Source of the DNA: Alphaproteobacteria bacterium
GTDB taxonomy: Bacteria > Pseudomonadota > Alphaproteobacteria > TMED109
Length of the DNA stretch: 35,875 bases
Direction: 5' to 3'
Assembly (NCBI GenBank): GCA_022819905.1
Contig: JAJEGJ010000105.1
Span: forward strand, 1-35,875
The notes beneath the pieces were generated by a model that had not been told where the DNA came from, did no database searches, and was given only the letters and a program-made list of their open reading frames with translations. A program made the translations under genes and the position numbers. Of this stretch, positions 1-21,003 are shown one piece after another; positions within the stretch are counted from its first letter, which is position 1; every line of letters starts with the position of its first letter.

Positions 1-32
1 CCGGGGGCCGGCGCCGCCGTCCGCGCGAAGCG

Positions 33-60
33 CCGCCGCGCGCTCGCAGGCGCGCGGCGG
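33..60. repeat. perfect GC-rich inverted repeat (hairpin)
   Basis: Positions 33-43 and 50-60 are perfect reverse complements (11 bp, CCGCCGCGCGC / GCGCGCGGCGG) with a 6-base loop. This would form a very stable hairpin in RNA. There is no T-run after it; an AT-rich stretch begins about 20 bases later. It may be the terminator of a gene ending left of the window, but that is inference. Confidence 0.55.
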
Positions 61-686
61 GTCCGCCTCGGGCCGCGCGGATGCGAATAATTCCGGATTT
101 ATCGCCAAATATCACGTAAAAGTCATAAAAGAGGGCCAAAAAATCATTTGGAAGTCATTGTTCTTGCTTAGTGCTCGGCTGTTCCGTGCGCCCGGCTCCG
201 CCGCGGCGCGCCGGTGCATCCGGTGCACGTGCCGGGCGATACCGCGTGCGGTCTGGCGAGGGCAAGGCGATGCGGCTTACGTGTACGAAAGGTGCTTCCT
301 GGGGCTCGTGTAGTTCGGTCGCCGAGCGCGACGGCGCCATGCCGTCAGCGTCTCGTCTGGATCTCTCCTCCCTCCACGGTCGGGGTTGCGGGCCGGGTGG
401 TGCATGCCCGCCCGCAGCTTCGACGACACGCATCAAGAGATTTCCCCAAACCGCCGCTGCGGCGGTCAGGCCGGTCGCGCTCCCGGCGGGAGCGTTGGGG
501 GCTCGTAGCCTCGCGTCCCCGACCCACGCCACCTGCGCAGGTCAGCCCTCGACAGCAGGCGGTGCTGAGGACCGCCGCCGGCGGCGCCAGGAACCCGCCG
601 ACGGGGACGCTTGTCAGCCGCCAGCGCACCCGGGTCGATCCCGACGCCTGGCATTGCCATCAGGACGCGGCACGTTCCCGTCGTGG
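61..686. other. leader region before the large secreted protein
   Basis: No convincing gene. Positions about 82-170 are AT-rich against a GC-rich background and are the likeliest place for a promoter, although I see no clean -35/-10 pair. The remaining roughly 500 bases are open in several frames because of high GC, but the translations are arginine/proline-rich low-complexity strings without family features. The downstream gene is better started at its signal peptide at 687. Confidence 0.5.
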
Positions 687-2177
687 ATGCCCCGATGGAC
701 GACAGTCTTCGCTTCCGCCCTGCTGGCGGCGGCGGTGTTCGCCCTGCCGTCCGTCGCGCTGGCGGACCTGCAGTTCACTACCGTCCCCTCGGATCAGACG
801 TGCCCGTTAGTGGGCACGGGAACCACAACCTGCAAGTTCACGTTGCCCGCAGCGACGGGCGCGACCGGAGGCGTGACCTACTCGTGGGAGTTTTTCAGCG
901 ATTCTGACGATCCGCCACCTACGGATCCAGGCACCGCGTTCGATTTCGATCCGGATCCGGACACGCGAGAGTTTACCGCGAACGGGCGGCCGGCGTACCA
1001 GACGGCGAAGGGCTGGCCCATCCGTTACAAGGCCGAAGATGACAACGAAACCATCACCGCCGAATTCCGCGTGAAGTTCGATGGCAAGCCGCTCATCAAC
1101 ATCCCCACCACCGGCCTGAATCCCACGGTCGGCGAGGCCGTCGATGAGAGGCTCAACGTTTCAGGCAACGGCCCGCTGACAATGAGCGGAACATCGATAG
1201 CTGGATATCATTTACCGAACCCGGGCCTGTCTACGCCCATCGACTTCACATCCGTTCGGGGTATTTCGTTTCGGATCGTCGCCGCCGCACCCACTGCTCC
1301 CCACCGGGCCGGCTTGCGGATTTTCGGCACGCCGGAGCAAGCGGGTTACTATCAAGTCAAGCTGAAGCTCTATGACGACAACGGTCAGTTCACACAGCGG
1401 GTACTGGAGATCTACGTCAACGGCGTGCCCAGTTTCGGCGATGCCGGGGTCCCCAACGCGGTCTTCCCCATCGGCGAGTACGGCGAGCTCGTCCTCCCGC
1501 CAGTCACCCTGGGCAACGGCGATTGGACGCACCACGTGGTCGAGCGGTGCGCGCTGCCCTCGGGGCTGGACTTCAGCGACGGGTACCCGGCGGCCCTGAA
1601 GATTTTCGGCACGGCGACGTCCGGCAACGTGAACGCAACGTTCTGCGACATCACCGTGAAGGACTCCAAGATCGACGGCTATTTCCGCGAGGATCCCGCC
1701 ACGATCCGGGTCTGCTTCAGCGTGGGGGATGGTGCCTCCTGCGAGGTGAGTTTCCGCGAAGACGCCAGCGTCCCCAACCAGGTCTGGCCCGTGGACACCC
1801 CTATCACGCAGCTCGTCCTGCCCAAGGCGTTGCGCTCGACCGGCACGGCGACCTACAGCATCGCCGGTCTGCCGGACGGGATCGTCTTCAACGACGGCAA
1901 CCGGACGCTCTCCGGCACGCCCACGGAAGTCGGCGACTTCACCGCGACCTACACGGCCACCGATAAAGCAGGCGAAGCGGGCACTACGGACACGCTCACC
2001 TTCCTTATCGAGGTGGACGGCGCTCCCAGTTTCCCGGACGCCGGATCGCCAACACCGTCTTCGAGATCGGCAAGAAGGTCACGATCGCCCTCCCCGAAGC
2101 CACGCCGGGCAACGGCACGTGGGACGACGATCACACCCGCACCTGGAGCCCGCCCCTGCCCTTCTCCGAGTGGCTGA
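687..2177 (+). pseudogene. 5' part of a broken secreted Ig-like/Calx-beta autotransporter-like protein
   Basis: This is the N-terminal portion of a large exported protein. The ATG at 687 is chosen because it opens a clear Sec signal peptide (MPRWTTVFASALLAAAVFAL, cleavage after SVALA). The mature part carries all-beta modules: a repeated unit beginning PSF-DAG occurs at about 1429 and again at about 2023, and a putative Ig (He_PIG-type) repeat with LPDGIVFNDGNRTLSGTP lies at about 1869-1922. The frame is lost next to 2044: GGATCGCCAAC should read GG-N-ATC-GCC-AAC by comparison with the parallel GGGGTCCCCAAC near 1446, so one base is missing. The last roughly 44 residues of this frame (to 2177) are out-of-frame arginine/serine/proline-rich sequence. 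Homology continues in the other forward frame to the TAG at 2354 and then into the downstream reading frame. An intact gene would encode about 1,864 residues. Confidence 0.75.
2044..2045 (+). other. inferred one-base deletion (frameshift)
   Basis: Codons before this point read D-A-G in the frame of the 687 start. From 2045 the expected continuation (I-A-N-T-V-F-E-I-G-K-K) is read one frame over and aligns with the earlier unit V-P-N-A-V-F-P-I-G-E-Y. There is no homopolymer here beyond a GG doublet, so slippage-driven phase variation is not obvious. A true mutation and an assembly error are both possible. Confidence 0.7.
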
Positions 2178-2353
2178 CGTTCGACGATTCCAACCCGGCG
2201 GCCATGACGCTCAGCGGCGAGGCGCCGACTAACAGCGAGCTGGCCGGGGATACGTACACACTCACCGTGAGGGACCGGAAGGTCACCGGTCAGCTGCAAG
2301 GGCAGGCCGCGACGCTCGAGCTCTGCTTCAGCGTAGGAGAAGGCGATGCCTGC

Positions 2354-2356
2354 TAG
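2354..2356 (+). other. in-frame TAG nonsense codon
   Basis: The sequence before the stop (CFSVGEGDAC) and after it (VVNFDDDASVPDQVY) aligns continuously with the earlier unit CFSVGDGASCEVSFREDASVP, with TAG in the place of a glutamate codon (GAG in the earlier copy). One substitution would explain it. It is a second lesion, separate from the frameshift about 310 bases upstream. Confidence 0.75.
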
Positions 2357-5300
2357 GTGGTGAACTTCGACGACGACGCCAGCGTGCCCGACCAGGTCTA
2401 CACGATGGGCAAGCGCATCGAGCCGGTGACCTTACCGGTTGCGCGACTCGGCACCGGCACGCTGAGCTACAGCATCGCCGATTTGCCGCCCGGGCTCGTC
2501 TTCGACGACACCAGCCGGACGCTCTACGGCACGCCCACGCAAGCCGCCGAAGGCACAGTGACTTACAAGGTCACGGACGACGAGGAGGCCGAGGCTACCC
2601 TGGAATTCACGATCACGGTGATGGGCCCGCTGACGTTCAGCGAGGCGCCAACCGGGTTCGACTTCACCGTGGGCGAAGACATCGGCACCACCGATCCCCT
2701 GCCTGAGGCGGCCGGTGGCAAGGGCACGCGGCGCTACAGCGCCTCCGGAGTGCCCGCCGGCCTGGCGTTCAACGACACTGACCGGACCCTGTCCGGCACG
2801 CCGTCGACCCCCGGGACCTACCAGCTGCTCCTGGAGGTGACGGACGAGGCCGGCGCCGGCGCGTCGCTGCCGGTCCCGGTGCGCGTGCATCGGGTGCCGT
2901 GGTTTGAGGCGGCGGCTGTGAACGTGAGCTTCCCTGGTCGCGACGTTACGCTGGCCGAGGCACGTGGCGGCTTCGCCCCGTTAACCTATTCGCTTGCCTG
3001 CATCGCCAGGTGCACCTCGCTGCCCTCGGGGCTGGTCTTCGAGGCCGACACGCGGAGGCTGTCGAGCGACTTTGCCACGCCCGGCCGCTACACCCTGAAG
3101 CTGACGGCAACCGACGACAATGATGCGCAGGGCAGCCAGACCATCGAGCTGCTTGTGGCCGACATCGTCATCAAGGCGTACGGGAGCCAGGCGGACCAGG
3201 AAAGCACGACTGAAGTTCCGATCGCGAGCCGGCCGATCGAGATCAAGGTGCCCGAAGCCCCTCCTGCCGGTCTCGATTTTGCGGCTGCCCGCCGCTACAC
3301 GCTCCAACTCTCCGGCGAGCCCAATACGGGCGACTGGGTTGAGATCGAACTCGCCGGGCCGTCCGGCGACCCCGACCTGCAGTACTTTCATGGCACCCGT
3401 CAGACAACGACGCTCGATTTCCGAGGCAACGATTTCAACTCAGCGAAGACCGTAGTGCTGTTGGCGGCAAATGACGCCGACGGTGAGAACGGCCGGGCGA
3501 CGATTCACCACAAGGTGACAAGCAATGATGAGGCCTACCACGGCCTCGAGTTCGACGTGCATCTGGTCGAGGACGACGACGATCCCAGGATCGAACTGTC
3601 GCTGGACCCGGCCACGCTCGCCGAGGGGGCCGGGGAGACCGAAAGGGAGATCACGGTCACGGCCACGGTCAAACCGCCCGCCGGGAGGACGAGCCCGAAC
3701 AGCTTCCCGGATTCCACCGTGATCACGCTTTCGGTGGCCGGCGGCACCGCGAGAGCGGGAGCGGATTACGAGGTCCTGTCGCCCTTCCAGATCACGATCC
3801 CTGCCCGCAGCACGGAGAGCCAAACGGCGACCTTCACGCTGACTCCCGTACAGGACGAAATCTATGAAGGTGACGAGACTGTCATCGTGTCGGACACTGC
3901 GGACCCAGAAGGGCGGACGCCGGCGTCCGCCACGCTGACGATCGCGGACGACGATGATCCCCCGATCTATCTCTCCGCCAGTTGCGAAGACCGGATCGTC
4001 GAGGAGGGCGACGACGGTCAGACGAAACACTTCCTCTGCACCGTCACGCGGCATGACGGCAACAACAATCCCGTGATCAGCAGCGAGGACGTCGATTTCA
4101 ACTACGCCACGGCGGGCGGCACTGCTACCGCCGGGGAAGATTATGTGGAGGTGAAGGAGGGAGATGGGAGTGGGACCATCAAAGCGGGCCAGTCATCTGC
4201 GAACGTGGTCCTCGCCGTGCTTGATGACACCGTGGAAGAGGTCCCGGAGACATTCAACGTTGTATTTTCTGCGAGCCCGCCGTTCGGTACGGTGACCATC
4301 ACGATCCAGGACGACGACGGCGGCCCGGCTGCGCAGCGAATTTCGACAACAGCCGGGGAGGAGCCCACCGACGAGGAGGGTCCAACGGATCCGGACGATG
4401 GCTACCGCGCGACGGCGGCCTTCGGTGCGACGGCCTACTCGGTGACCGAAGGCGGCCCGGCGGCGACCATCGCCGTGACGCTGGACCCGGCGGCGCCGGA
4501 GGCCCGCACCATCGCGATCCCCATTTCTGGGAAAGGCGGCCCGGGCGTGACGCGGGAGGACTGGCGGATCGCCGTCAATTCAGGTGCGCGCGATACCTGG
4601 GACGCTGCCACCGGCACGGCCATCGTGCGCTTCGCCGCGGGCGAGACGGAGCGGACGTTCACCCTTGAGGCGCTCGACGATGACGACTTCGAGGGGAACG
4701 AAAAGCTCACGCTCAGCTTCGACGCCAGCCGTCTGCCCGACGGCGTGACGGCGGATCCGGCCGCCGCTGAGGCCGTGGTGACGCTGGTCGACGACGATCT
4801 CCAGGAGCATCGCGGCCGGGTGCTGAAGCACGTGCTGGCGGCGTTCGGGCGCACGGTGGCGTCGGCCGCGCTGACGCTGCTCACTGGCCGCATGGACGAC
4901 GGCCCGGCGGGCGGGGCCTCCAGCGTCTCGCTGGCCGGGCAGTCGCTCCGCCTCGGCGGCGCCTTGCCGGGTGCGCCGGGCGCTGACGCGCTCGCCGGGG
5001 CGGGCCCGGCCGAGCGGCACGCCGTGGTGCTCGCCGATGCCCACGATCCCTGGACCGTGCCCGGCGCCGCGCGGGAAGCACGGGCGATCACCGTCCGCGA
5101 GCTGCTGACCGGCTCCTCGTTCCGCCACCGCCTTGGCGTGGCCGACGGGCAGGGTCTCGCCGGCGGCGCGTGGACGCTGTGGGGCGAGGGCGGCGCGGCC
5201 CGCTTCGAGGGCCGTCCGGCGACGGACTTCTCGCTTGACGGCGACGTGGCGTCCGGCTGGCTCGGCGTGGACTGGCAGCGGAAGCCCGCGGTGATGGGCA

Positions 5301-6280
5301 TCTCGCTGTCGCACTACCGGGGCGCCGTGGACTACGAGACCACCGGTGCCGCCGCTTCCAAAGGCGACGTCGAGCTCGATCTCACGAGCGTGTTCCCGTA
5401 CGCCCGGTGGTCGCTCGAGAGCACAGAGCTCTGGGGCATCGCGGGTGTCGGCACAGGACGCCTCGAACTCGTGGACACCTTCGGCGGCAACCGCTCGGAC
5501 ATGGCCATGCAGATGGCGGCGGCCGGGGCGCGCCGCACCATCCGGCCGGCCGGCGAGCGGGGCATCAGCCTCGCGGCCAAGGCCGACGGGTTCGTGGTGC
5601 GCATGGAGTCGGAGGCCCGGGGCCTCGACACCCGCGCCGCCGGGGACGACCTTCCCGCGGTGAACGCGCGCGCCGGGCGGCTCCGCGTGGCGCTCGAGGC
5701 GGGCTACCGGCACACGCTGGCCTCCGGCGCGGTGCTGCGGCCGACGGCGGACGTGGGCGCGCGGCTCGACAGCGGCGACGCGGACAGCGGCGCCGGGGTC
5801 GATGTCGCGGGCGGGCTTCGCTACGAGAGCCCGTCGGGCCGGCTGACGCTGGAAGGGCAAGGGCGGGTGCTGTTGGCGCATGCCGCGGACGGGTTCCAGG
5901 AATGGGCCGCCGGCGGGCTGGTGCGCCTGGCGCCCGAGACCGACGGGCGGGGCCTGTTCCTCAGCGTGGCCCCGTCGTGGGGCGTGGCGACCAGCCGCGC
6001 CGGCGCGCTCTGGGACGCGGACCTCCCGGACACCCGGAGCGATCCGGGCGCCCGGATGACGGCGGAGGTCGGCTACGGGCTCCCCGCGTTCAGCGGGGTC
6101 GGCCTGCTGACGCCCTGGGCCGGGACGGAGCTGGCCGAGGGCGAGGGGCGCACCTGGCGCGCGGGGCTCCGCCTCGAGCTCCGCCGCGATCTCGCCCTCA
6201 GCATTGAGGGTTCCCACCGCGACAAGGAAGAAGGCGAGCCGGAGGACGCGGTCGGCCTGCGGCTGTCCGTCCACTTCTAG
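2357..6280 (+). CDS. 3' part of the broken Calx-beta autotransporter-like protein
   Basis: The open frame is 1,307 codons and begins directly after the TAG at 2354. GTG at 2357 is only the first possible start; without the upstream part there is no signal peptide, so the fragment is probably not exported. Domains in order: three putative Ig (He_PIG) repeats in about residues 20-260 (LPPGLVFDDTSRTLYGTP; VPAGLAFNDTDRTLSGTP; LPSGLVFEADTRRL); a further beta module to about 405; three Calx-beta repeats at about 408-530, 534-655 and 686-815, with GGTA-AG-DY and DDD spacer motifs; then a glycine-rich C-terminal barrel of about 480 residues ending VGLRLSVHF, with the terminal phenylalanine typical of outer-membrane barrels. 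In an intact copy the barrel would anchor the calcium-binding-type passenger at the cell surface, with a likely adhesion role (inference). The codon pattern and both domain types remain intact after the lesions, so inactivation is recent or artefactual. Confidence 0.75.
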   Translation: MVNFDDDASVPDQVYTMGKRIEPVTLPVARLGTGTLSYSIADLPPGLVFDDTSRTLYGTPTQAAEGTVTYKVTDDEEAEATLEFTITVMGPLTFSEAPTGFDFTVGEDIGTTDPLPEAAGGKGTRRYSASGVPAGLAFNDTDRTLSGTPSTPGTYQLLLEVTDEAGAGASLPVPVRVHRVPWFEAAAVNVSFPGRDVTLAEARGGFAPLTYSLACIARCTSLPSGLVFEADTRRLSSDFATPGRYTLKLTATDDNDAQGSQTIELLVADIVIKAYGSQADQESTTEVPIASRPIEIKVPEAPPAGLDFAAARRYTLQLSGEPNTGDWVEIELAGPSGDPDLQYFHGTRQTTTLDFRGNDFNSAKTVVLLAANDADGENGRATIHHKVTSNDEAYHGLEFDVHLVEDDDDPRIELSLDPATLAEGAGETEREITVTATVKPPAGRTSPNSFPDSTVITLSVAGGTARAGADYEVLSPFQITIPARSTESQTATFTLTPVQDEIYEGDETVIVSDTADPEGRTPASATLTIADDDDPPIYLSASCEDRIVEEGDDGQTKHFLCTVTRHDGNNNPVISSEDVDFNYATAGGTATAGEDYVEVKEGDGSGTIKAGQSSANVVLAVLDDTVEEVPETFNVVFSASPPFGTVTITIQDDDGGPAAQRISTTAGEEPTDEEGPTDPDDGYRATAAFGATAYSVTEGGPAATIAVTLDPAAPEARTIAIPISGKGGPGVTREDWRIAVNSGARDTWDAATGTAIVRFAAGETERTFTLEALDDDDFEGNEKLTLSFDASRLPDGVTADPAAAEAVVTLVDDDLQEHRGRVLKHVLAAFGRTVASAALTLLTGRMDDGPAGGASSVSLAGQSLRLGGALPGAPGADALAGAGPAERHAVVLADAHDPWTVPGAAREARAITVRELLTGSSFRHRLGVADGQGLAGGAWTLWGEGGAARFEGRPATDFSLDGDVASGWLGVDWQRKPAVMGISLSHYRGAVDYETTGAAASKGDVELDLTSVFPYARWSLESTELWGIAGVGTGRLELVDTFGGNRSDMAMQMAAAGARRTIRPAGERGISLAAKADGFVVRMESEARGLDTRAAGDDLPAVNARAGRLRVALEAGYRHTLASGAVLRPTADVGARLDSGDADSGAGVDVAGGLRYESPSGRLTLEGQGRVLLAHAADGFQEWAAGGLVRLAPETDGRGLFLSVAPSWGVATSRAGALWDADLPDTRSDPGARMTAEVGYGLPAFSGVGLLTPWAGTELAEGEGRTWRAGLRLELRRDLALSIEGSHRDKEEGEPEDAVGLRLSVHF

Positions 6281-6304
6281 CACGCTGACCGGAAGGCCTG
6301 CTGG

Positions 6305-6338
6305 GCAGTCCTGCGCCCTGTATGGGCGTAGCGACTGC
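6305..6338 (+). terminator. two-tier hairpin after the large gene
   Basis: An outer stem GCAGTC (6305-6310) / GACTGC (6333-6338) encloses an inner stem CGCCC (6314-6318) / GGGCG (6324-6328) with a 5-base loop, 25 bases after the stop codon. There is no U-run, so it is terminator-like rather than a textbook intrinsic terminator. A second tight hairpin, CCCCC-GGC-GGGGG, lies at 6361-6373. Confidence 0.45.
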
Positions 6339-6373
6339 CGGCAGGCTTCGCGACAGTCATCCCCCGGCGGGGG

Positions 6374-7118
6374 CGGCGCGCCTTGGGCCGGCAGTGCCGA
6401 CCCACCGCCCGGGCACGCTACATGGTCCAACTCGCCGGACGGGCGATGAGGCTAGGTTGGCGTTGGACGGTGCGTCCGCGCCGCCGGATGCCGATCCGGC
6501 GCGCGGAGCGGAAGGGCGCCGGTGCGGGCGTTCCCCAGGACCGGCAAAGGCTCCGATCATGTTCGCCCCGTCCATCAAGGTTACCGGCCCAAGCATGATC
6601 CGGACCCGATGCCCGCGCCTCCGGACACCGTTGACACGGCGTGGCCTGAGCGGCCTTGTCGCGCTCCAATCTGACACGGGACTTTGATCCAGAAACGGCG
6701 CTACCGAGCACCCGACCCCCGCCGGAGACGACCTGGCCCCCCTGCACCCATGGGCGGGGCAACACGCAACCGCCTGGCGGGGTTGCCGCTGTTGCGGGAC
6801 GGGGGCCGGGTTGATACTCCACGACCGGAAGGGAACTCCGCATCTCCACGAGCCCCGGCGATTCCCGGATCATGTCGGCGCCGCCGGCCTCGAGCCAGGC
6901 GATCCGCAGCCTCACTTCCCGGATGTCAGATCCGAACCACGTTGCCGTGAAACCACATGCGTAGAGTCGGCCCCGACTGCCGCCAACGGGAACGGCCTTC
7001 CAATGCACCCTGACCGCCAGCTTCCAATTCGACGAACGGCAACCGACGATCTGCGCGACGCTCGGGCCGGCCGGTCGGGACGCCCCGCTGCGGAGCAGCC
7101 GCGAAGGGCGGGGACGGG
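6374..7118. other. intergenic region without a recognisable gene
   Basis: About 745 bases. A long minus-strand frame crosses it, but its translation is arginine/proline/serine-rich and starts inside the downstream gene. One internal stretch (minus strand, about 6870-6960, reading SDIREVRLRIAWLEAGG) looks slightly protein-like; I cannot assign it. The promoter of the flavoprotein operon should lie at the right end, but I see no clear consensus. Confidence 0.4.
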
Positions 7119-8624
7119 ATGACCGAGACGCTGACAACCGACGTCGTGGTCGTGGGGGGCGGCAACGCCGCGCTCACGGCGGCGCTCGCGGCGGCCGAGG
7201 CCGGGGCGCGCGTGCACCTGCTGGAGGCCGCGCCGGAGGAGGAGCGGGGCGGCAACAGCGCCTATACCGCCGGCGCGGTGCGCGTGGTCTTCGACGGCGC
7301 GGAGGCGCTGCGCGCCCTGATGCCCGACCTCTCGGATCGCGAGCTGGCGGACACCGACTTCGGCGCCTACCGCGAAGCCAACTACTACGACGACATGGCG
7401 CGGCTCACCCAGTACCGCGCCGACCCGGACCTGGTGGAGCAGGTCGTGACCGGCAGCCATGGCGCACTGTGCTGGCTGCGCGGCAAGGGCGTGCGGTTCC
7501 AGCCGAGCTACGGGCGCCAGGCCTTCAAGCAGGAGGATGGCCGCTTCCGCTTCTGGGGCGGGCTTGCCGTCGAGGCGTGGGGCGGCGGTCCCGGCCTGGT
7601 CGCAGCGCTCTACCAGGCCGCGGAGAAGGCAGGGGTCACCGTCCGGTACCAGGCCCAGGCACGCTCCCTGATCGCGGACGACGCCGGGGTGAATGGCGTG
7701 CGCGCGCGCATCGAGGGGCGCAGCGTCGACGTGCGCGCCCGGGCCGTCGTGCTCGCCTGCGGCGGCTTCGAGGCCAATGCCGCCTGGCGCGCACGCTATC
7801 TCGGCCCCGGCTGGGACCTCGCCAAGGTGCGCGGCACCCGCTTCAACCAGGGCGACGGGATCCGCATGGCGCTGGAGGCTGGCGCCATGCCGGCCGGCAA
7901 CTGGTCGGGCTGCCACGCGGTCGCCTGGGACCGGAACGCGCCGGACTACGGCGACCTCGCCGTGGGTGACGGTTTCCAGAAGCACAGCTACCCCTTCTCC
8001 ATCGTCGTCAATGCGGACGGCCAGCGCTTCGTCGACGAGGGGGCGGACTTCCGCAACTACACCTATGCCGCCTACGGCCGCCGGGTGTTGGAGCAGCCGG
8101 GCCAGGTGGCGTGGCAGGTGTTTGACGCGAAGGTGAGCCACCTACTCCGCGACGAGTACCGGATCCGGCAGGTGACCCGGGCGCAGGCCGACACGCTGGA
8201 GGCCCTCGCGGCGAGGATGGAGGGCATCGACGGCGCGCGGTTCCTGGCGACCGTCCGGACCTACAACGACGCCGTGGCCACCGACGTTCCGTTCGACCCG
8301 ACGGTGAAGGACGGCCGCGGAACCCGCGGGCTCGACCCGCCCAAGTCGAACTGGGCGAACCGGATCGAGACCCCGCCCTTCGAGGCCTATGCGGTGACCT
8401 GCGGCATTACCTTTACCTTCGGCGGCCTCGCGATCGACCCGGAGGCCAGGGTGCAGGCGGTCTCCGGCGACCCGATCCGCGGTCTGTTCGCAGCCGGCGA
8501 ACTGGTCGGCGGGCTCTTCTACGGCAACTATCCGGGCGGCACCGGCCTGGTCTCGGGGGCGGTCTTCGGTCGCCTCGCTGGCACCGGCGCGGCCCGTTTC
8601 GTGCGGGAGGGTGGGGAGACATGA
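7119..8624 (+). CDS. FAD-dependent tricarballylate dehydrogenase-like flavoprotein (TcuA-like)
   Basis: 501 residues, normal length for the fumarate reductase/succinate dehydrogenase flavoprotein-type FAD_binding_2 family. The N-terminal Rossmann dinucleotide-binding motif VVVVGGGNAALTAALAAAEAG is followed by RGGNSAYTAGAVR, where the family contacts FAD. The C-terminal FAD motif GLFAAGELVGGLFYGNYPGG closes the fold. Within this family the GGNAA/GGNSAYT pattern most resembles TcuA, which oxidises tricarballylate to cis-aconitate in Salmonella. That substrate is inference, because the membrane partner TcuB and the transporter TcuC are absent here. The stop overlaps the start of the next gene (ATGA), so the two are translationally coupled. 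It lacks a signal peptide and is probably cytoplasmic. Confidence 0.8.
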   Translation: MTETLTTDVVVVGGGNAALTAALAAAEAGARVHLLEAAPEEERGGNSAYTAGAVRVVFDGAEALRALMPDLSDRELADTDFGAYREANYYDDMARLTQYRADPDLVEQVVTGSHGALCWLRGKGVRFQPSYGRQAFKQEDGRFRFWGGLAVEAWGGGPGLVAALYQAAEKAGVTVRYQAQARSLIADDAGVNGVRARIEGRSVDVRARAVVLACGGFEANAAWRARYLGPGWDLAKVRGTRFNQGDGIRMALEAGAMPAGNWSGCHAVAWDRNAPDYGDLAVGDGFQKHSYPFSIVVNADGQRFVDEGADFRNYTYAAYGRRVLEQPGQVAWQVFDAKVSHLLRDEYRIRQVTRAQADTLEALAARMEGIDGARFLATVRTYNDAVATDVPFDPTVKDGRGTRGLDPPKSNWANRIETPPFEAYAVTCGITFTFGGLAIDPEARVQAVSGDPIRGLFAAGELVGGLFYGNYPGGTGLVSGAVFGRLAGTGAARFVREGGET

Positions 8625-9511
8625 GTGGCGTGCGCATCGGCTTCGTCGGCGTCGGTGTCATGGGCGAGCCCATGTGCCGGAACCTTGTCCGCCGACACGA
8701 CGGGCCGGTGACCTGCTACGACCTCGACCCGGCGCCCCTGGAGCGGCTCGCCGCCGCCGGCGCGCGGGTGGCATCGTCCCTTGCCGAACTCGCCGACTGT
8801 GCCGATCTCGTGTTCCTGTCCCTCCCTTCCGGGCGCGAAGTGCGGTCGGTGTGCCTCGGGGACGGCGGTCTGATCGAGCGGATGGACGCCGGGCGGACCG
8901 TGGTCGACGCCAGCACGGCGCCGCCAGCGCTCGCCCGCGAGCTCGACGATGCCTTCGGCCGTCGCGGCATCGCCTTCTGCGATGCGCCGGTCGCCCGCGC
9001 CCGGCAGGCCGCCATCGACGGCACGCTCAGCATCATGGCGGGCGGCGACGCGGCCCTGGTGGAGCGCCTGCGCCCGGTGCTCGCGCACATCGCCAGCGAC
9101 GTGACCCACTGCGGGCCCGTCGGCAGCGGGCAGGCCGTCAAGATCCTGAACAACATGATCCTCTTCCAGAACGTCCGGGCGATTGCGGAGGGACTCGCGA
9201 TCGCGCGCCGCCAGGGAGTCGCTCCCAAGACCTTTCTGGAAGCGGTGGGCCGGAGTTCGGGCGACAGCTTCGCGCTCCGCAACCACGGCATGAAGGCGAT
9301 TCTCGCGGAGCACTACCCGGAGGGCGCGTTCCCTGTGACCTACGCGATGAAGGACCTGAACTATGCGCTCGAGCTGGCCACGGAGGCCGACGTCAACGCC
9401 GCGGGCGCAGATCTGGTGAAGGCGCTGTTCGACGAAGCCGTCGAGAGCGGGCTCGGCGAGCGCTACCACCCGGTGATCGCCACCCTGGTCGACCGCAAGC
9501 AGTCCACCTGA
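8621..9511 (+). CDS. NAD(P)-dependent beta-hydroxyacid dehydrogenase, 3-hydroxyisobutyrate dehydrogenase family
   Basis: 296 residues, the usual length for the family, which oxidises beta-hydroxyacids (3-hydroxyisobutyrate, tartronate semialdehyde, gamma-hydroxybutyrate) with NAD(P)+. The N-terminal nucleotide-binding motif GFVGVGVMGEPM sits at residues 7-18, and the acidic end of the second strand (YDLD, 33-36) suggests NAD preference. The catalytic lysine is K174 in GSGQAVKILNNM, with N178 following. The substrate-binding signature, usually D-A-P-V-S-G-G, here reads DAPVARARQAAIDGTL (121-136): Ser-Gly-Gly is replaced by Ala-Arg-Ala, which places the protein outside the classical HIBADH/GarR subgroups. 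Its start lies inside the upstream flavoprotein stop (ATGA), so both enzymes are probably made together and may act in sequence on a carboxylic acid. Confidence 0.85.
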   Translation: MSGVRIGFVGVGVMGEPMCRNLVRRHDGPVTCYDLDPAPLERLAAAGARVASSLAELADCADLVFLSLPSGREVRSVCLGDGGLIERMDAGRTVVDASTAPPALARELDDAFGRRGIAFCDAPVARARQAAIDGTLSIMAGGDAALVERLRPVLAHIASDVTHCGPVGSGQAVKILNNMILFQNVRAIAEGLAIARRQGVAPKTFLEAVGRSSGDSFALRNHGMKAILAEHYPEGAFPVTYAMKDLNYALELATEADVNAAGADLVKALFDEAVESGLGERYHPVIATLVDRKQST

Positions 9512-9520
9512 CCGGAGAAG

Positions 9521-9553
9521 GGAGCGCCTGGGGTTCGGTTCCCGGCACGCTCC
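9521..9553 (+). terminator. hairpin after the flavoprotein/dehydrogenase pair
   Basis: GGAGCG (9521-9526) pairs with CGCTCC (9548-9553), and a weaker inner pairing of GGGG with CCCG is possible in the loop. It lies 10 bases after the stop of the dehydrogenase. No U-run follows, so terminator function is tentative. Confidence 0.4.
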
Positions 9554-9910
9554 TCACCGCCGTGCGAGACGAGTTTTCTTACCCAACGGCTCGGCGACGC
9601 GCGCTCCAGCTGTATCCGCCGTCGCGAACACCTGCCGCCTGAGGTCCGGCGGCAGTTGCCCGAATCTGCCTTGAGCCTGTAAATCGGGACCGACAGGGCC
9701 CCGAGGAAGCGTCCCTCGAGCCGGCAGCGCCTTGTTCACGCGGGATTGACGGCACCGACCCGATCATCGCCATTTCTGTGCCATCGGCTGCCGATTCTTG
9801 GAAGCTCCCGCAGGTGTCGGCATTATGGGGTGCGGGATTGCTCTGCAATTCAAGACGGCCCGGACGGGTCGGTATTGACCGACCGTGCAGCGGCCGGGGA
9901 GCGAAGCATC
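9554..9910. other. intergenic region before the Asp-box protein
   Basis: About 360 bases without a supported gene. A forward frame extends upstream from the beta-propeller gene to 9746, but the added N-terminus has no conserved look and the better ribosome-binding site is next to 9911. I see no clear promoter. Confidence 0.4.
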
Positions 9911-13567: not shown

Positions 13568-14749
13568 ATGGCTGAAATGAACTTTCCCCGACTGACCCGG
13601 CTGCCCAAGCAGAGCTTTTTTCTCCTTGGCGTTCGCGGGGTGGGCAAGAGCACCTGGGCACGGCTGCAGTTTCCCGACGCCTTGCACATCGATCTCCTCA
13701 ACGAGGCTCGCTACCAGGACTATCTCGCTGATCCGTCCCTCTTCGCGGCGGATCTCCAGCCGGCGCCGCCGGGCAGTTGGGTGGTGGTCGACGAGATCCA
13801 GCGCCTTCCAAACCTTCTCAACGAAGTGCACCGGCACATTGAGGATCGGCGTCTCAATTTCGCCCTGCTCGGATCGAGTGCGAGAAAGCTCAAGGCAGCC
13901 AGCGTCAACCTGCTCGCCGGCCGCGCGCTGCACAAGGCCATGCACCCCCTGACCCCGGTCGAGCTCGGCGACGATTTCAATCTCGATACCGCCCTCGATA
14001 CGGGAACCATCCCGCTGGTCTGGGTTGCGGGCGAGCGGCGCCCGGTACTCGAGAACTATGTCAGGCTCTATCTGCGCGAGGAGGTCCGGGCCGAAGGGCT
14101 GGTCCGAAACCTCCCTGGATTTGCGCGGTTCCTGCCGGTCGCCGCCCTCTACCACGGCCAGGTCGTCAACACTGCCGGCATCGCCCGTGACTGCGGCGTC
14201 GCGCGCACCACGGTGCAAGGCTATCTGGATATTCTCGAGGACACGCTGCTTGCCGTTCGCCTCCCCGCCTTCCAGCCGCGGCTCCGGGTACGCGAGCGCC
14301 GCCATCCCAAGCTCTACTGGGTCGACCCCGGCGTGGTCCGTGCCGTGAAGAAGCTGCACGGGCCGATCGCGCCGGAGGAGCGCGGCGCGCTCCTGGAAGG
14401 CTGGGTCCTGCACCTCCTGCGTGCGCACGGTGAGGAGAATGAGCTGTTCGATGAGCTCCGCTATTGGGCGCCACACCCTGCGAACTTGACGGAAGTCGAC
14501 TTCCTGCTCCGCCGGGGCAATGAGCTGGCGGCGATCGAGGTCAAGTCCCAGCCCCGCTACCACACCGGAATGCTGCCGGGACTGCGCGCGATCGGGGAAC
14601 TCCCGGGACTGGTGCGGCGGGTGCTGGTTTACGGTGGCAGGCGGTCGTTTCGGACCGAGGACGGTATCGACGTGTGGTCGGTCGCGAGACTGCAACACGT
14701 ACTGGCCGGAAACTGCCTGTGGCCCGGAGACACCCAGCTAGGCGCCTAG
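13568..14749 (+). CDS. AAA-type ATPase with C-terminal DUF4143
   Basis: 393 residues, the usual size for the ATP-binding AAA_14/DUF4143 family. Walker A is GVRGVGKST (residues 21-29), Walker B is VVVDEIQ (72-78), and a sensor-like segment LLGSSARKL follows at about 103-111. The C-terminal half carries the DUF4143 region with TEVDFLLRRGNELAAIEVKS, which has the E/D-x-K pattern of a PD-(D/E)XK nuclease-like fold. These proteins are widespread in bacteria and archaea and are often found near toxin-antitoxin genes; their cellular role is not established. ATG 13568 is used, with ATG 13577 as an alternative; neither has a strong ribosome-binding site. It converges with the hipBA operon. Confidence 0.8.
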   Translation: MAEMNFPRLTRLPKQSFFLLGVRGVGKSTWARLQFPDALHIDLLNEARYQDYLADPSLFAADLQPAPPGSWVVVDEIQRLPNLLNEVHRHIEDRRLNFALLGSSARKLKAASVNLLAGRALHKAMHPLTPVELGDDFNLDTALDTGTIPLVWVAGERRPVLENYVRLYLREEVRAEGLVRNLPGFARFLPVAALYHGQVVNTAGIARDCGVARTTVQGYLDILEDTLLAVRLPAFQPRLRVRERRHPKLYWVDPGVVRAVKKLHGPIAPEERGALLEGWVLHLLRAHGEENELFDELRYWAPHPANLTEVDFLLRRGNELAAIEVKSQPRYHTGMLPGLRAIGELPGLVRRVLVYGGRRSFRTEDGIDVWSVARLQHVLAGNCLWPGDTQLGA

Positions 14750-14750
14750 C
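14737..14750. repeat. 14-bp perfect palindrome over the ATPase stop codon
   Basis: GCTAGGCGCCTAGC is its own reverse complement and includes the TAG stop of the AAA/DUF4143 gene. It could be a short terminator stem or a protein-binding site. With no loop and no U-run, it is better as a DNA site than as an RNA hairpin. Confidence 0.4.
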
Positions 14751-15299
14751 CACGGTCAGCTGGGCGCCAGTCTCATCCCAGGCGACACCCGGCGTGAGCG
14801 CGGATCGCATTGGGAGAGAACTCGAGCATCGACGGCTGAAGCTTCCAGGTCGCCCACAGTACGACCCCGACAGACCCCGTCGCGAGGTCGCGGTGATGAC
14901 GGACGAGAGGCGGTGGGCCGCAGGGGATCTTCCGGGATGGGCGGACGTAGCAATCGCAAACACACGGCCGTAGCGCCGGTGGGTTGGGGCCGCAGACGCC
15001 AAAAGCCCTGAGCAAATCCGCCAGTATCGCCGGGTCACATCTTCCACAAACAGCGGAGGTTGCACCGGTTCAGATCAAATTTGTCAGAACATGTCGGTTT
15101 CGGTGGCCGAGCACGCCCGAAGCCAGAGGCACGGTAGCCCAGCCCGTAGATGCCCCGTGTGTGCCTGAGGTAGCCGGGGTTCGCTACCGGGCTCCACGGC
15201 CGCTCGGAAGCTGATCGAGATCGTGTTGTTCGCGTCGACCGTCGTCGGTGCCCACTAGATGCCAGGAACGGCGGAGGCGCCGCCACGGGAGAGTTTCCG
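14751..15299. other. convergent intergenic region with no assigned gene
   Basis: Lies between the 3' ends of the ATPase gene (plus) and hipA (minus). Short minus-strand frames such as one reading NPGYLRHTRGIYGLGYRA (about 15120-15180) look weakly protein-like, but I cannot match them to a family. They may be remnants. No RNA gene or repeat was seen. Confidence 0.4.
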
Positions 15300-16580
15300 T
15301 CACCGCAGGCCCTCCGCCCTGCCTTCGAAGACGAAGTCATTGAGGAAGATGCGTTCGCCGAACAGGTTGCGCTCGACGTCCGTCAATGTGGCTTCCTCGC
15401 AGATCTCGTTCCATCCGTCCCGGATGGTGGCGATCTGCCGGGCGATGATGTCCTTTGCCGCGTTCTCGCTGAGCTGGAAATTGGGCGCGGCCGCAAGGCA
15501 GGTCGCGAGCGTGCTCGCGCGGTTGTCTCCGACGATCAGCATCGCCTGGCTGGCCACATCGCCGGTACGGCTTTGCGGGCAGATGTCGTAGGCAGGAGTC
15601 AGCGTCAGGTGTTCGCCGTCCCAGAAGCCCGCATGGTTGCGGGCGTGATCGTCGGTGTTGCCGCACAGGACGTTGAACACGAGGCGACCGTACAGCTCGT
15701 GCAACGTCGCCTTCGGCGAGATGAAGCGGTGCCGGATGATTTCCGCGAGGTCTTCATAGCTGGCGTAACGCGCCATCATTTCATCGAGACCGAACAGCGT
15801 CAGCGCCGAGACCATTGCCCGGCGCGTCCAGCCGTCGTTCGTCTTGGCACGGTCGAATCGCTCGACCAGCAGCACGTCCTTGCCGGCGGCATGGGCGAGA
15901 CGCACGGGGGCGACGTCGAGCCCTGCCCTGGCCGCAAGGCGCATGGCGACAAATTCCGCCTTTACGACGTTGGAGGTGTCGGTCAAAGACGAGAATTTGG
16001 CGATCATCTTGGTGTCGCCGTCCTGGATCATCGCCTTCGGGCGTGCGCCGCCGAGCGACGTGCCGTGGAACAGCGCCAGATCGAGTTCGGGCGACAGCGG
16101 CGCGCCCTGCTCGACCTTCTCGGCGGCGCTCAGCAGCTCTTCGAGCGTCGCGGCTTGCACGGCGCGCGGTACGTACTCGGAAGGCGAGTGCTGGAAGTCA
16201 AGGGCACCGACGCGGTCGGAGCCGGACGCCAGCAGATAGGTGAGCTCGTCGAGCGCAGCGATATCGACATCCTTGCCCTTGCGTCCGAAGGTTCGGTTCA
16301 GGATGACGCGCCGGCCCCAAGCGTCGGGCGCGGCGTCGCGCAGACATGCGGCCATGCCCAGCCCGGCTTCCGGCGCAATGGCCCCGCTCCGCGACGGCAG
16401 TTCCGGCTCGTAGATCGGGATGCCGTCGTTTCGGTCCAGATAGCTCTGACCGTAGTTGAAGATCAGCCGGTCGCCGTCCCGCGCGATGCGACCGGCGACG
16501 ACCGGGACCGTCGCACCCGGCAGCCATATCCAGACATAGGCCTCCTCCGGTGCGTTCGTGTCGGGTTGATCAGAAGTCAT
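15300..16580 (-). CDS. hipA: HipA-type serine/threonine kinase toxin
   Basis: 426 residues, typical for HipA. HipA of E. coli phosphorylates glutamyl-tRNA synthetase and induces growth arrest and persistence; other HipA-family kinases hit different targets, so the exact substrate here is unknown. An N-terminal HipA_N-like domain (about 10-120) precedes the kinase core. GTSLGGARPKAMI (173-185) corresponds to the glycine/serine ATP-site loop, MIAKF (192-196) carries the ATP lysine, GNTDDHARNH (307-316) is the catalytic loop with the conserved Asp and Asn, and TPAYDICP (328-335) holds the metal-binding Asp. All kinase motifs are intact, so it should be active. It overlaps the end of hipB by 11 bases and follows it on the minus strand, the normal antitoxin-first order. 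Confidence 0.9.
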   Translation of the reverse strand: MTSDQPDTNAPEEAYVWIWLPGATVPVVAGRIARDGDRLIFNYGQSYLDRNDGIPIYEPELPSRSGAIAPEAGLGMAACLRDAAPDAWGRRVILNRTFGRKGKDVDIAALDELTYLLASGSDRVGALDFQHSPSEYVPRAVQAATLEELLSAAEKVEQGAPLSPELDLALFHGTSLGGARPKAMIQDGDTKMIAKFSSLTDTSNVVKAEFVAMRLAARAGLDVAPVRLAHAAGKDVLLVERFDRAKTNDGWTRRAMVSALTLFGLDEMMARYASYEDLAEIIRHRFISPKATLHELYGRLVFNVLCGNTDDHARNHAGFWDGEHLTLTPAYDICPQSRTGDVASQAMLIVGDNRASTLATCLAAAPNFQLSENAAKDIIARQIATIRDGWNEICEEATLTDVERNLFGERIFLNDFVFEGRAEGLR

Positions 16581-17022: not shown

Positions 17023-17258
17023 GGAGCTAATAGTCTGCTTATAGAACAGACATGCTAGTGTAAGTCATCAGAGTGGGCTTGTGCGTGGGTTCAAGCCCCA
17101 ACGGGCTGTGCGCAAGACGACTACGAACGAGGTGCCGCTGCGTCGCTCCTATCGCCGCCGCCGGAATCGTCTCCATCGCCCCAACGATGGTGCGAAGCCG
17201 ATGCGCGGATATCCGCGCCCGTACGTAGCCCTTGAGCGGTCGGACGGATGCACATGGG
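17023..17258. other. intergenic region between the hip promoter and the SulP gene end
   Basis: No gene is supported. A small stem AGCCC / GGGCT near 17093-17105 could contribute to termination of the minus-strand SulP transcript, but it is short. Confidence 0.35.
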
Positions 17259-18902
17259 TCATCCTTCGTTGTCTTCCGCAAGGAAGCCGCGGGCCACCTC
17301 GCTTGCCTGTTCCATGGTTTCCACCAGGCACCCTTCGGGCACGCGCTGCGAGACACCGAACGCAAACAGCGTTTCTCCCACCACGTCCGAGAGGCCCGCG
17401 AGAATGAACGCGGTACGCTGCTCCCGGGCGATGTCCAGCAGGTCTCCGATCAGTTTGGCGGCGCTGTCGTCGAGGTAGGTGGTACCGGAGAAATCGAAGA
17501 TCACGACGTCGTGGCCCTTGATGTCCGCGCCGATGACGGCCACGAGCTGCCTGGACGACGCCACGGTGAACCCCCCCTTGAGCCGCACCAGCCCGACCCG
17601 CGCGGAACTGGGGTCGGCGTGCGCCATGGCGGCACGGCCCGCGAAGACGTCCCGGTCGAGTAGCGGGACCGAAATCACGCTTTGCAGTTCGAAGCGCTCG
17701 AGCTGTCGCGCATGGACCATGCCGGCGGCGATCAGTCCCACGGCGCCACCGGTGATGAGGTCGACGAACACGGTCAGGGTCAGGGTCGTCAGGATGACGA
17801 TCAGGTAATCGCGTCGGAGGTGGCGGGCGCGGCCGAGCAGGTCCCAGTCGATGAGGCCCCAGCCGACCCGGATCAGGATGGCCGCCAGCACCGCGTGGGG
17901 AATCGGTGCGACCAGGTGCCCCAATCCCAGCACCATCGCGAGCACGAGCATGGCGCGCAGGGCGCCCGATACCCGCGTGGAGCCGCCTGCCCGAATGTTG
18001 GTCACGGTGCTGACCGACGCGCCCGCGCCCGGCAGTCCGCCGATCAGCCCCGCGACGACGTTGCCGATACCCTGGCCGAACAGTTCGCGGTTCGGATTGT
18101 GCCGCGAGCCGGTGAGCGAGTCCGCGACCATGCCCGCGAGGAGGCTGTCGATCGAACCCAGCAGGGCGAGGATGAGCGCGGGCTGCAATGCGCTGATCAC
18201 GAACGTGAGCGAGGGCACTGCGAGTTGCAGCTGTGGCAGGACCGCGGGGATCGGTCCGATCGTCGGCGCCTCGGTCAGCCACTGAACGCCGAGCAGGGAA
18301 CCCGCGACCAGGGCGGCTAGGGGCGCGGGCAGCCATCGGCCAAATCTTCTGGGCCAGAACACCGTGGTGGCCAAGGCGGCAACGCCGACCACGAGGGCGT
18401 GCGGCTCGAGGTTGCCGACGATGTCCGGCAGCGCCTGCAGCGACGGGATGGCTCCCCCGGGCACGGCGGGGGAGCCGAGGAGCGGCGCAATCTGCACCAG
18501 CAGGATGGTCAGGCCGATCCCCGACAGAACGCCCGAGATGACGACATAGGGGGTGTAGGCGACGAAGCGTCCCAGGCCGGACAGCCCCAGCAGGACCTGC
18601 AGCAGGCCGCCCATGATCACGACGGTGAAGGCTTCCGACAGACTGGTGGAATGCGCCGTCACGATCACCGCCATCGCGACGGTCACCGAAGGCGCGGGAC
18701 CCGAAATCACCGTGCGGGTGCCGCCGAACACGGCCGCGAAGAAGCCGACGGCGATCGAGCCGTACAGTCCGGCAGCCGCCCCCAGGCCCGAGGCGACGCC
18801 GAAGGCGAGCGCAAACGGCAGCGATACTACGGTTGCCGTGACCGCGCCCGACAGATCGCCGCGAAAGGTCTGGAGGTCGTAACGCAAGCGGCCTGACCCC
18901 AC
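17259..18902 (-). CDS. SulP-family anion transporter with STAS domain
   Basis: 547 residues, normal for bacterial SulP (SLC26-like) transporters, which move sulfate, bicarbonate or other anions across the inner membrane. The hydrophobic part (about 20-400) contains the SulP pattern: GVASGLGAAAGLYGSIAVGFFAA near the N-terminus, then TRTVISGPAPSVTVAMAV, and GLPGAGASVSTVTNIRAGG later. The cytoplasmic STAS domain (about 420-540) includes VVIFDFSGTTYLDDSAAKLIG, with the Asp-Asp-Ser of its regulatory loop. The start is GTG at 18902 with AGGGA upstream. It begins 30 bases after the end of the decarboxylase gene on the same strand, so the two are almost certainly one operon. The substrate cannot be read from the sequence; the partner suggests an anion linked to amino-acid decarboxylation. 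Confidence 0.88.
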   Translation of the reverse strand: MGSGRLRYDLQTFRGDLSGAVTATVVSLPFALAFGVASGLGAAAGLYGSIAVGFFAAVFGGTRTVISGPAPSVTVAMAVIVTAHSTSLSEAFTVVIMGGLLQVLLGLSGLGRFVAYTPYVVISGVLSGIGLTILLVQIAPLLGSPAVPGGAIPSLQALPDIVGNLEPHALVVGVAALATTVFWPRRFGRWLPAPLAALVAGSLLGVQWLTEAPTIGPIPAVLPQLQLAVPSLTFVISALQPALILALLGSIDSLLAGMVADSLTGSRHNPNRELFGQGIGNVVAGLIGGLPGAGASVSTVTNIRAGGSTRVSGALRAMLVLAMVLGLGHLVAPIPHAVLAAILIRVGWGLIDWDLLGRARHLRRDYLIVILTTLTLTVFVDLITGGAVGLIAAGMVHARQLERFELQSVISVPLLDRDVFAGRAAMAHADPSSARVGLVRLKGGFTVASSRQLVAVIGADIKGHDVVIFDFSGTTYLDDSAAKLIGDLLDIAREQRTAFILAGLSDVVGETLFAFGVSQRVPEGCLVETMEQASEVARGFLAEDNEG

Positions 18903-18932
18903 GCGTCGCTTCGTCCCTGAAACGGCCGCCCG

Positions 18933-20405
18933 CTATCGCGTCTGCTGCTCCGCGGCTTCCGTACCGAAGCGCTCCACCGCGTCCAGCGTTTCGCGGACGT
19001 CCTCCCAGGTGGTGTCGTGATGCAGGATGCAGAGCCTGAGCGAAAACGTCCCGTCCGGCGCGGCCGAAGAGATCAGTGCCCGATCCTCCCAGAAGATGCG
19101 GGCCAGCACCGCCCGGTTGATCATCTCCAGGGCCTCTTCGTCGAGGGATGCATCGTCGGGCCTGAAGCGGAAGCACACGATCCCCAGCGAGACGGGGGCC
19201 AGCAGTTCCAGCGTCGGCCGCGCGCGGATGTGGCGACCGGCCTCGGCGGCCAGTGCCATCGTGCGTGACACGGCCTGGCGAAACGCATCCATGCCGAAGG
19301 TCTGGATGGACATCCAGACTTTCAGCGCGCGAAACGAACGGCTCAACTGCAGCCCGCGGTCCGCAAAATTGGGGTGATTGGTGCCCCACACGGTGTCCTG
19401 CAGCACGTCGTGCCGCAGCCCAAAGGCGTTCTCGAGCGTCTTGACATCCTTGACCATCAGACAGCCGGCCTCGTACGGCTGGAAGAACCATTTGTGCGCG
19501 TCGAGCCCGATCGAGTCGGCGCGTTCGATCCCGCCCATGAGCGCCCGACCCTCCTCGACGACAACAGCAAAGCCGCCGTAGGCGGCGTCGGCGTGCAGCC
19601 ACAGATCCTGGGCTTCGCAGTAGTCCGCGATCGTCGCCAGTGGGTCGATGGCTCCGGTACTGGCCGTGCCGGCGTTGGCGCACACGGCGAGGGGGTGCAA
19701 ACCCACGGCGCGGTCGCGCGCCACCGCCTCTGCCAGCGCCGCGACATCCATCCGGAAGCAGCTGTCGCTCGGAATCTGGCGGATGTGCTCTTGACGGACA
19801 CCGATGATGCGCGCCGCCCGGGCAATGGCACCGTGGGTCTGATCGCTCATGTACACGCAGGCCCGTTCGGGCGAAGCCCCGGCCGCCTCCCGGGCCGCGA
19901 CCAGCGCGTCGAGAGCCGCGGCCGAGCCACCGCTCGTGAAGAGCCCGCCGGCGCCCTCCGGGTATCCGAGCCAGCGGCGGAACCAGTCGACGACGACCAG
20001 CTCAAGCTGGCTCGGGCCGCTCGCCGCCAGCCAGGTGCAGGCGTTGATGTTGTAGCCCGCGGCCAGAAAGTCGCCGATCACCCCGGGCCAGGTGATGCAC
20101 GACGGCACGAACGCAAAGAAGCGGGGGTGCTGGTGCCGGGCCGCTGTCGGGAGGATCTCGCGGGCGACCTGCTCCAGCACCTCGCCTGCTGGCCGACCGT
20201 GCCGGGGCGGGTCCGCCATCAACTGGTCCTCGAGCGCCTGCTGAAAGTCCCCCTCCCAGGCGTCCTTGCCGGGAAGTTGCGTGTTCCAGTCGACAAGCAG
20301 CTCGGTGGCTCTCTGGGCCAGCTGGAGCATGTCCTCGCGCGGCATCTGCAAGCTTGCGCGCCTGGCCCCGCCGACATCTGGATTCGATAGTTCCCCGTCC
20401 CGCAT
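18933..20405 (-). CDS. PLP-dependent amino-acid decarboxylase, group II (aromatic-L-amino-acid/cysteine-sulfinate type)
   Basis: 490 residues, as expected for group II decarboxylases. The PLP lysine is K305 in [11 protein letters not shown]273 in HADAAYGG binds the pyridine nitrogen, H191 in SDQTHGAI stacks on the ring, and the phosphate loop is [13 protein letters not shown] (156-168). The N-terminal [20 protein letters not shown] is the family's entry segment. Members decarboxylate DOPA, tryptophan, tyrosine, glutamate, aspartate or cysteine sulfinate, or act as aldehyde synthases; the substrate is not evident here. It is the first gene of an operon whose second gene is a SulP transporter. 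The protein is soluble and probably homodimeric. ATG 20405 is used; a second in-frame ATG lies 20 codons on (MPREDML). Confidence 0.85.
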
Positions 20406-21003
20406 GGCTCTTCGTTCTCTCTTGCTTCTGTCCGGTGAACACGAACGTCATATCGACGTTGGCACCCGCAATCGCTTGCCAGCCAGGGACGGGCCCCGTG
20501 GATGCCGTGCCGCGACGAAGTCTAGCGGCGCATCCCGGCATCTGTTTCCGACATCCGGATGCCGCGCTAGGGAGTCTGGCGACGAGCCTGAAGTTGCATA
20601 AGCGGCTAGCGAGCAGGGCGGCTACGGTCCAGCCAGCGGTGTAGCGGGAGGACTGACCACGGTCCTCTCGGTCCCGAAACGCTGCAACGTGGCCCGGCCG
20701 GAGTTACGGTTTGCAGTTGAGGAAACCGATAGCGTGCGCTGGACGACGGACAGGGGCGATAGCCGCTCGAATTTGCGAAAGCATGGTGTCGGCCGCGAGG
20801 CTGCTTAACAAGCATTTGCGGAACCCTTGACAGTGCGACGCCGGACCCGAATCGAGTTGAAGGGCAGCGGCCTGCCGTTGGCCTTGCGGGCAATGGGATT
20901 GTCGCGGTGTGGCACACGTCACCAGTTCCGGGCACCAGTGCTGGCTCTGGGGTGGGGTGGATCGTCACCGCCAGGAACGCCACACTGTGCCAAAGGAGAG
21001 CCT
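20406..21003. other. divergent intergenic region
   Basis: About 600 bases between the decarboxylase start (minus) and the small BrnA-like gene (plus). It must hold both promoters. An upstream in-frame extension of the small gene (from about 20827) is arginine/glycine-rich and not conserved-looking. In particular I find no BrnT-type toxin frame here. Confidence 0.4.

Follow-up and report, generated by a model that had tools for sequence, protein, structure and literature searches.

Near one end of a contig of an uncultured alphaproteobacterium lies the gene of a giant autotransporter whose reading frame is interrupted twice. This raises the question whether a surface protein has recently been lost, whether it is still made by programmed recoding or phase variation, or whether the interruptions are a fault of the assembly. 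All three possibilities had been named in the original prediction, which was made from the letters of the window, i.e. the whole stretch of 35,875 nucleotides that was analysed (contig JAJEGJ010000105.1). Probably the gene has only recently become a pseudogene; its product would have been a giant surface protein of the autotransporter (type V) class.

Architecture and coding state of the gene

The coding region comprises positions 687-6280 of the window, starts 686 bases from the contig end and would encode about 1,864 residues if it were whole; it is now spread over two frames (Table 1). According to the ORF analysis, frame 0 begins with the start at 687 and is closed by a TGA at 2175-2177. 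Frame 2 has two open stretches: one begins at 1967 and ends with the TAG at 2354-2356, the other extends from 2357 up to a TAG at 6278-6280. The resulting pieces have 452, 103 and 1,307 residues, the first of which appears to begin with a signal peptide. In Pfam searches, He_PIG units were found on both sides of the lesions and all three Calx-beta stretches in the last piece; the He_PIG match of the middle piece (E 0.0068) is below the curated cut-off.

Table 1 Position of the broken autotransporter gene, its parts and its surroundings in the window
Feature	Position	Strand	Evidence or remarks
Conserved non-coding leader of the autotransporter gene	63-430	+	putative AT-rich promoter-like stretch and putative 5' untranslated region
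Stretch that the syntenic site of G002 lacks (leader followed there by the downstream flank)	277-6783	+	blastn
N-terminal piece	687-2042	+	452 residues; signal-peptide-like start and Ig-like repeats; He_PIG E 1.9e-13
Lesion 1, one-base frame change (frame 0 to frame 2)	2030-2045	+	frame scan and orthologue comparison
Middle piece, second copy of an Ig-like unit in the shifted frame	2045-2353	+	54% identity to L033 residues 632-730
Lesion 2, in-frame TAG stop	2354-2356	+	orthologue without a stop there
C-terminal piece	2357-6280	+	three He_PIG and three Calx-beta stretches, barrel, terminal Phe, TAG stop
Outer-membrane translocator barrel with N-terminal helix	4796-6277	+	AlphaFold2 model
Flanking FAD_binding_2 and NAD_binding_2 dehydrogenase genes, which fix the synteny	7119-9511	+	

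From base composition alone, an open frame of 1,307 codons has a chance of about 7e-13. The GC content by codon position is 0.59/0.52/0.82, 0.59/0.52/0.88 and 0.65/0.51/0.83 in the three passenger pieces and 0.78/0.58/0.93 in the barrel, which resembles the three neighbouring genes measured alongside. Open frames, normal codon-position GC and the match to an orthologue thus bear out the original description of a gene in good coding shape on either side of the lesions, including the terminal Phe.

An intact orthologue at the same locus

A single scan of a genome collection gave two relatives, and only one intact orthologue was found in it. This orthologue, L033 (VXPO01000075.1, Gammaproteobacteria bacterium SB0662_bin_58; the bin is presumably of sponge origin), covers query residues 2-1307. 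Its frame (L033:5263-11361) has 2,032 codons and runs unbroken through both lesion places. The three pieces of the window align to it in order and with short gaps only, at residues 174-630, 632-730 and 733-2032 and with identities of 44%, 54% and 60%; over 1,818 aligned codons the identity is 58%. In the window as well as in L033 the FAD-binding and NAD-binding dehydrogenase genes follow, and then a gene with BNR repeats, which in L033 is preceded by about 3 kb of other genes. Because of these common downstream genes the L033 gene represents the same locus. The comparison with an intact homologue in a relative, which had been proposed as a check, therefore yields a gene that is whole, syntenic and free of either lesion.

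The FAD proteins of the present genome (G000) and L033 are 90% identical, with dS 0.31 and dN 0.057. For the autotransporter, the passenger has an identity of 46-57% and an NG86 dS of 0.66-0.74, the barrel an identity of 73% and a dS of 0.44; dN/dS lies between 0.38 and 0.65 (ratios calculated by hand). To judge from these values the passenger may either diverge unusually fast or have been exchanged between alleles.

The two lesions

Both lesions that had been predicted, a one-base deletion and a TAG at 2354, were recovered; the exact site given for the first, about 2044, could not be upheld. Homology fits both frames between about 2030 and 2045, which limits its placement to about 15 bases, and the upstream end of this interval is slightly favoured by the orthologue codons and by the second repeat, whose match begins at 2030. 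Two random lesions in this gene would fall this close together by chance in about 11% of cases, so their closeness is uninformative.

Signal peptide and passenger are not in the open frame of the barrel here, with two lesions lying between them; in L033 they would be, to the extent that its frame is continuous. Because the lesions separate these parts, the gene as read from its sequence is a broken and not a working member of the autotransporter (type V) class. Inactivating lesions relative to an intact orthologue, the mark of a pseudogene, are present in comparison with L033. In the whole protein, the signal peptide would direct export and the C-terminal barrel would be inserted into the outer membrane. 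The long passenger, made up of Ig-like and Calx-beta units, would be exposed at the cell surface and, if its domains are a guide, would probably serve as an adhesin. Either lesion alone would cut the exported passenger from the barrel, so that no displayed protein is expected and the function is presumably lost; a restart at the GTG at 2357 would give a barrel without signal peptide.

The lesions are probably recent, because the remaining frame still looks fully coding. About 2.3% of the single substitutions in this frame create a stop, and indels occur very roughly at one per ten substitutions. By estimate, a neutral divergence of less than one percent would account for two lesions; the synonymous divergence of the FAD gene from its nearest relative in the genus, G002, is 0.26.

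Recoding and phase variation

Some full-length protein could still be made if ribosomes slipped at the heptamer TTTCCCG (2030-2036) and read through the TAG. Indeed this X XXY YYZ heptamer lies in the right phase, at a place where the homology can switch frame. However, an estimated 70 or so in-frame positions are open to such a heptamer, so that one by chance is unremarkable, and there is no stable RNA structure in the 60 bases that follow it (2037-2096), which fold worse than most shuffles (z +1.59). Moreover, two events would be required, the L033 orthologue needs none, and TAG is an ordinary stop here. Programmed recoding is accordingly considered highly improbable. A reading of TAG as a sense codon was rejected as well: it ends 8 of the 19 window ORFs listed, including this gene, and also the orthologue.

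Surface proteins are often phase-variable, which speaks for a switch by slipped-strand mispairing. Nevertheless, neither lesion lies at a repeat tract. No homopolymer of five or more was found within 1729-2807, and 1901-2500 contains just two tracts of three or more units, ACACAC at 2256 and CGACGACGA at 2368, both away from the lesions. Slippage would furthermore leave the stop codon unexplained, and phase variation has hardly any likelihood. Hence, with no tract and no stable fold, nothing beyond one heptamer speaks for the recoding or phase variation that the original prediction had allowed for, and the locus gives no sign of exotic decoding.

The barrel and its relatives

The AlphaFold2 model of the barrel (mean pLDDT 71.3, moderate confidence) has a helix at residues 2-34 followed by barrel strands. 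About 18 strands can be counted in it, with only moderate confidence toward the end; autotransporter barrels usually have 12. The best rows of a VIA-align 2 comparison are the autotransporters NalP (Z 19.0), EspP (18.9), EstA (17.7) and AIDA-I (17.6); the non-autotransporter barrel CymA reaches 17.1, and CymA and porins together range from Z 14 to 17. With Foldseek the first match is the autotransporter BrkA, followed by many TonB-dependent receptors. The last residue of the barrel is Phe. Barrel, N-terminal helix and aromatic end together thus suggest, at moderate confidence and as far as the model goes, an autotransporter.

Among sequence profiles, PF03797 matches 7 of 18 aligned barrels at E 0.01 and not the present one, and a search of PDB sequences with the barrel profile gave no match at E values up to 1. 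A relative in the same genome, on contig C7, scores above the PF03797 cut-off. On viral contigs, none of six pattern stretches encodes a relative. A second autotransporter of the genome (L035, on the 3,359-base contig C30) is also broken and changes frame at least twice; it is the only row with internal stops among the 50 match rows of the relatives search, whose query starts 3' of the two lesions of the present gene. By a hand count among loci L001-L032, 22 carry a barrel, and in 12 of these the nearest contig end is no more than 5 kb away.

Control genes and the quality of the assembly

As a control, 285 ORFs were picked from about 436 kb of G002 and sought in about 367 kb of the present assembly, with more than 70% identity and more than 70% coverage required of an orthologue. 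None of the 127 genes thus compared (48,613 residues) had changed frame. A second frame must contribute 12 residues to be scored by the script, which can therefore overlook lesions close to the ends of genes. Eight of them were flagged for an in-frame stop. In five, the stops are within the first 51 residues, and in a sixth the stop is at residue 122 with the homology beginning at 110; these six early stops are as expected from starts set too early. The remaining two (stop at 92 of 329, and at 69 of 654 plus residue 3) are overlapped by a long ORF on the opposite strand and are candidate lesions only. In the reverse direction the flagged G002 genes number 11 of 132. Two of these match in more than one frame, and most of the others have early stops or overlap an ORF on the opposite strand. 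Within the window, 13 of 31 G002 ORFs were matched, one in two parts of one frame and two in part; an unnamed G002 ORF of 102 residues, which may be no gene, matches the window in two frames.

A generally error-rich assembly is unlikely, because neither a frame change nor a clear mid-gene stop was found in the 127 control genes. The chance that general error put two or more lesions into the gene is about 0.006 (from the 95% upper bound of a zero rate), or about 0.025 by hand calculation if the two candidate control stops count as lesions. That two lesions argue against one sequencing error, as had been reasoned beforehand, is a fair point; the control genes provide the stronger argument.

The assembly fault that had been considered originally thus survives in its local form, in which the gene of the species is whole and low coverage or strain mixing at a variable locus added one or both lesions. 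The gene adjoins a contig end, the other broken copy sits on a very short contig, and apparent frame breaks also occur in the sister assembly (the two in G002). In addition, the many barrel loci close to contig ends may be hard to assemble or come from mixed strains, and the control genes are not of this kind. On the other hand, the controls show no frame change, neither lesion lies at a homopolymer of five or more, and lesion 2 is a substitution to a stop, which is not a usual assembly error. On balance a local fault is possible and rather improbable.

The site in other genomes of the genus

The FAD gene was found in five of the six other genomes of the genus with 89-95% identity; in G005 it gave a weak match only, so that the site was not located there. 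The nearest by this gene is G002 (95%). At its scar locus (L044, G002:C32:152170-152383), blastn aligns window 63-276 with L044:4171-4384 and window 6784-9676 with L044:4386-7300, and a single base separates the two matches. Consequently, the autotransporter gene is deleted in G002 and a leader scar is left. In G003, G004, G001 and G006 the homology to the window starts only at 6875-6957, and no gene or leader is present upstream of the FAD gene in the 4.9 to 12 kb fetched. An unrooted tree of the FAD gene places G000 and G002 together and then G003. L033 lies between this group and G004, G001 and G006, to which it is closer by identity. Either the gene is old and was lost several times, or more than one gain or transfer took place; at least one loss is implied by the G002 scar.

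A syntenic comparison with G002 also covered the stretch farther downstream. About 1 kb (window 14305-15276) is missing in G002, where the AAA_14/DUF4143 counterpart is shortened, and a HipA-like kinase gene (15300-16580) is kept. At the syntenic site G002 also lacks a stretch (17226-20958) with genes of a sulfate permease family protein and a PLP-dependent decarboxylase; over 174 residues this decarboxylase matches G005 at 97%.

The leader is 87% identical in DNA to L033 (window 6-427) and 88% identical to the G002 scar (63-276). A second copy with 77-78% identity is present in the same genome (C7:73373-73824, L045). This copy lies near the contig end, just before a signal-peptide-like stretch. 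As a DNA pattern the leader core occurs at three places in two of the seven genomes of the genus. The leader had no match in Rfam at the gathering threshold, and a known RNA was ruled out on this ground. A coding N-terminal extension was rejected too, as the substitutions show no excess at third codon positions.

Probable loss of a surface protein and comparison with known systems

Altogether, the locus is whole in L033, broken here, deleted down to the leader in G002 and absent in four other congeners. The recent loss of a surface protein, the first of the originally proposed explanations, is corroborated by the intact syntenic L033 gene, the leader scar in G002, the second broken autotransporter and the absence of frame changes in the controls. 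The best reading is that of a young pseudogene within a surface-protein family which diverges fast and is patchily distributed. Beyond this it may be speculated, with little confidence, that giant surface proteins are turned over at this site. Fast-diverging passengers would stand under a strongly conserved, shared leader; alleles would be broken or deleted repeatedly and the leader kept as a place for a new passenger, perhaps tuned by the way in which an animal host recognizes the bacterium. If this were true, such loci would mark surface proteins under changing selection in this genus. As it stands, related genomes show one locus in its whole, broken and deleted forms, which makes it a clear, if small, example of the loss of a surface protein in an uncultured lineage.

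With the Calx-beta and He_PIG repeat proteins the broken gene shares both Pfam domains, each above its curated cut-off; it differs from them in that the repeats are fused to an autotransporter-type barrel that has no Pfam assignment in this member. No paper on this locus was among the literature matches listed. Comparable decay has been described elsewhere. In Campylobacter, capC and capD are intact in certain lineages, and premature stops and frameshifts have inactivated them elsewhere (PMC7168839); for bmaA, bmaB and bmaC of Brucella, pseudogenes linked to lineage are reported (PMC8111173). The likeness consists in surface autotransporters that are whole or inactive by lineage. In contrast to both, the present gene has a very large Ig/Calx-beta passenger and belongs to an uncultured bacterium; the record of its intact relative bears the title of a gammaproteobacterium, and a deletion in one sister genome has left nothing but the leader. 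Measured against those accounts, it is a new instance of an already described decay of autotransporters, for which such loss is ordinary.
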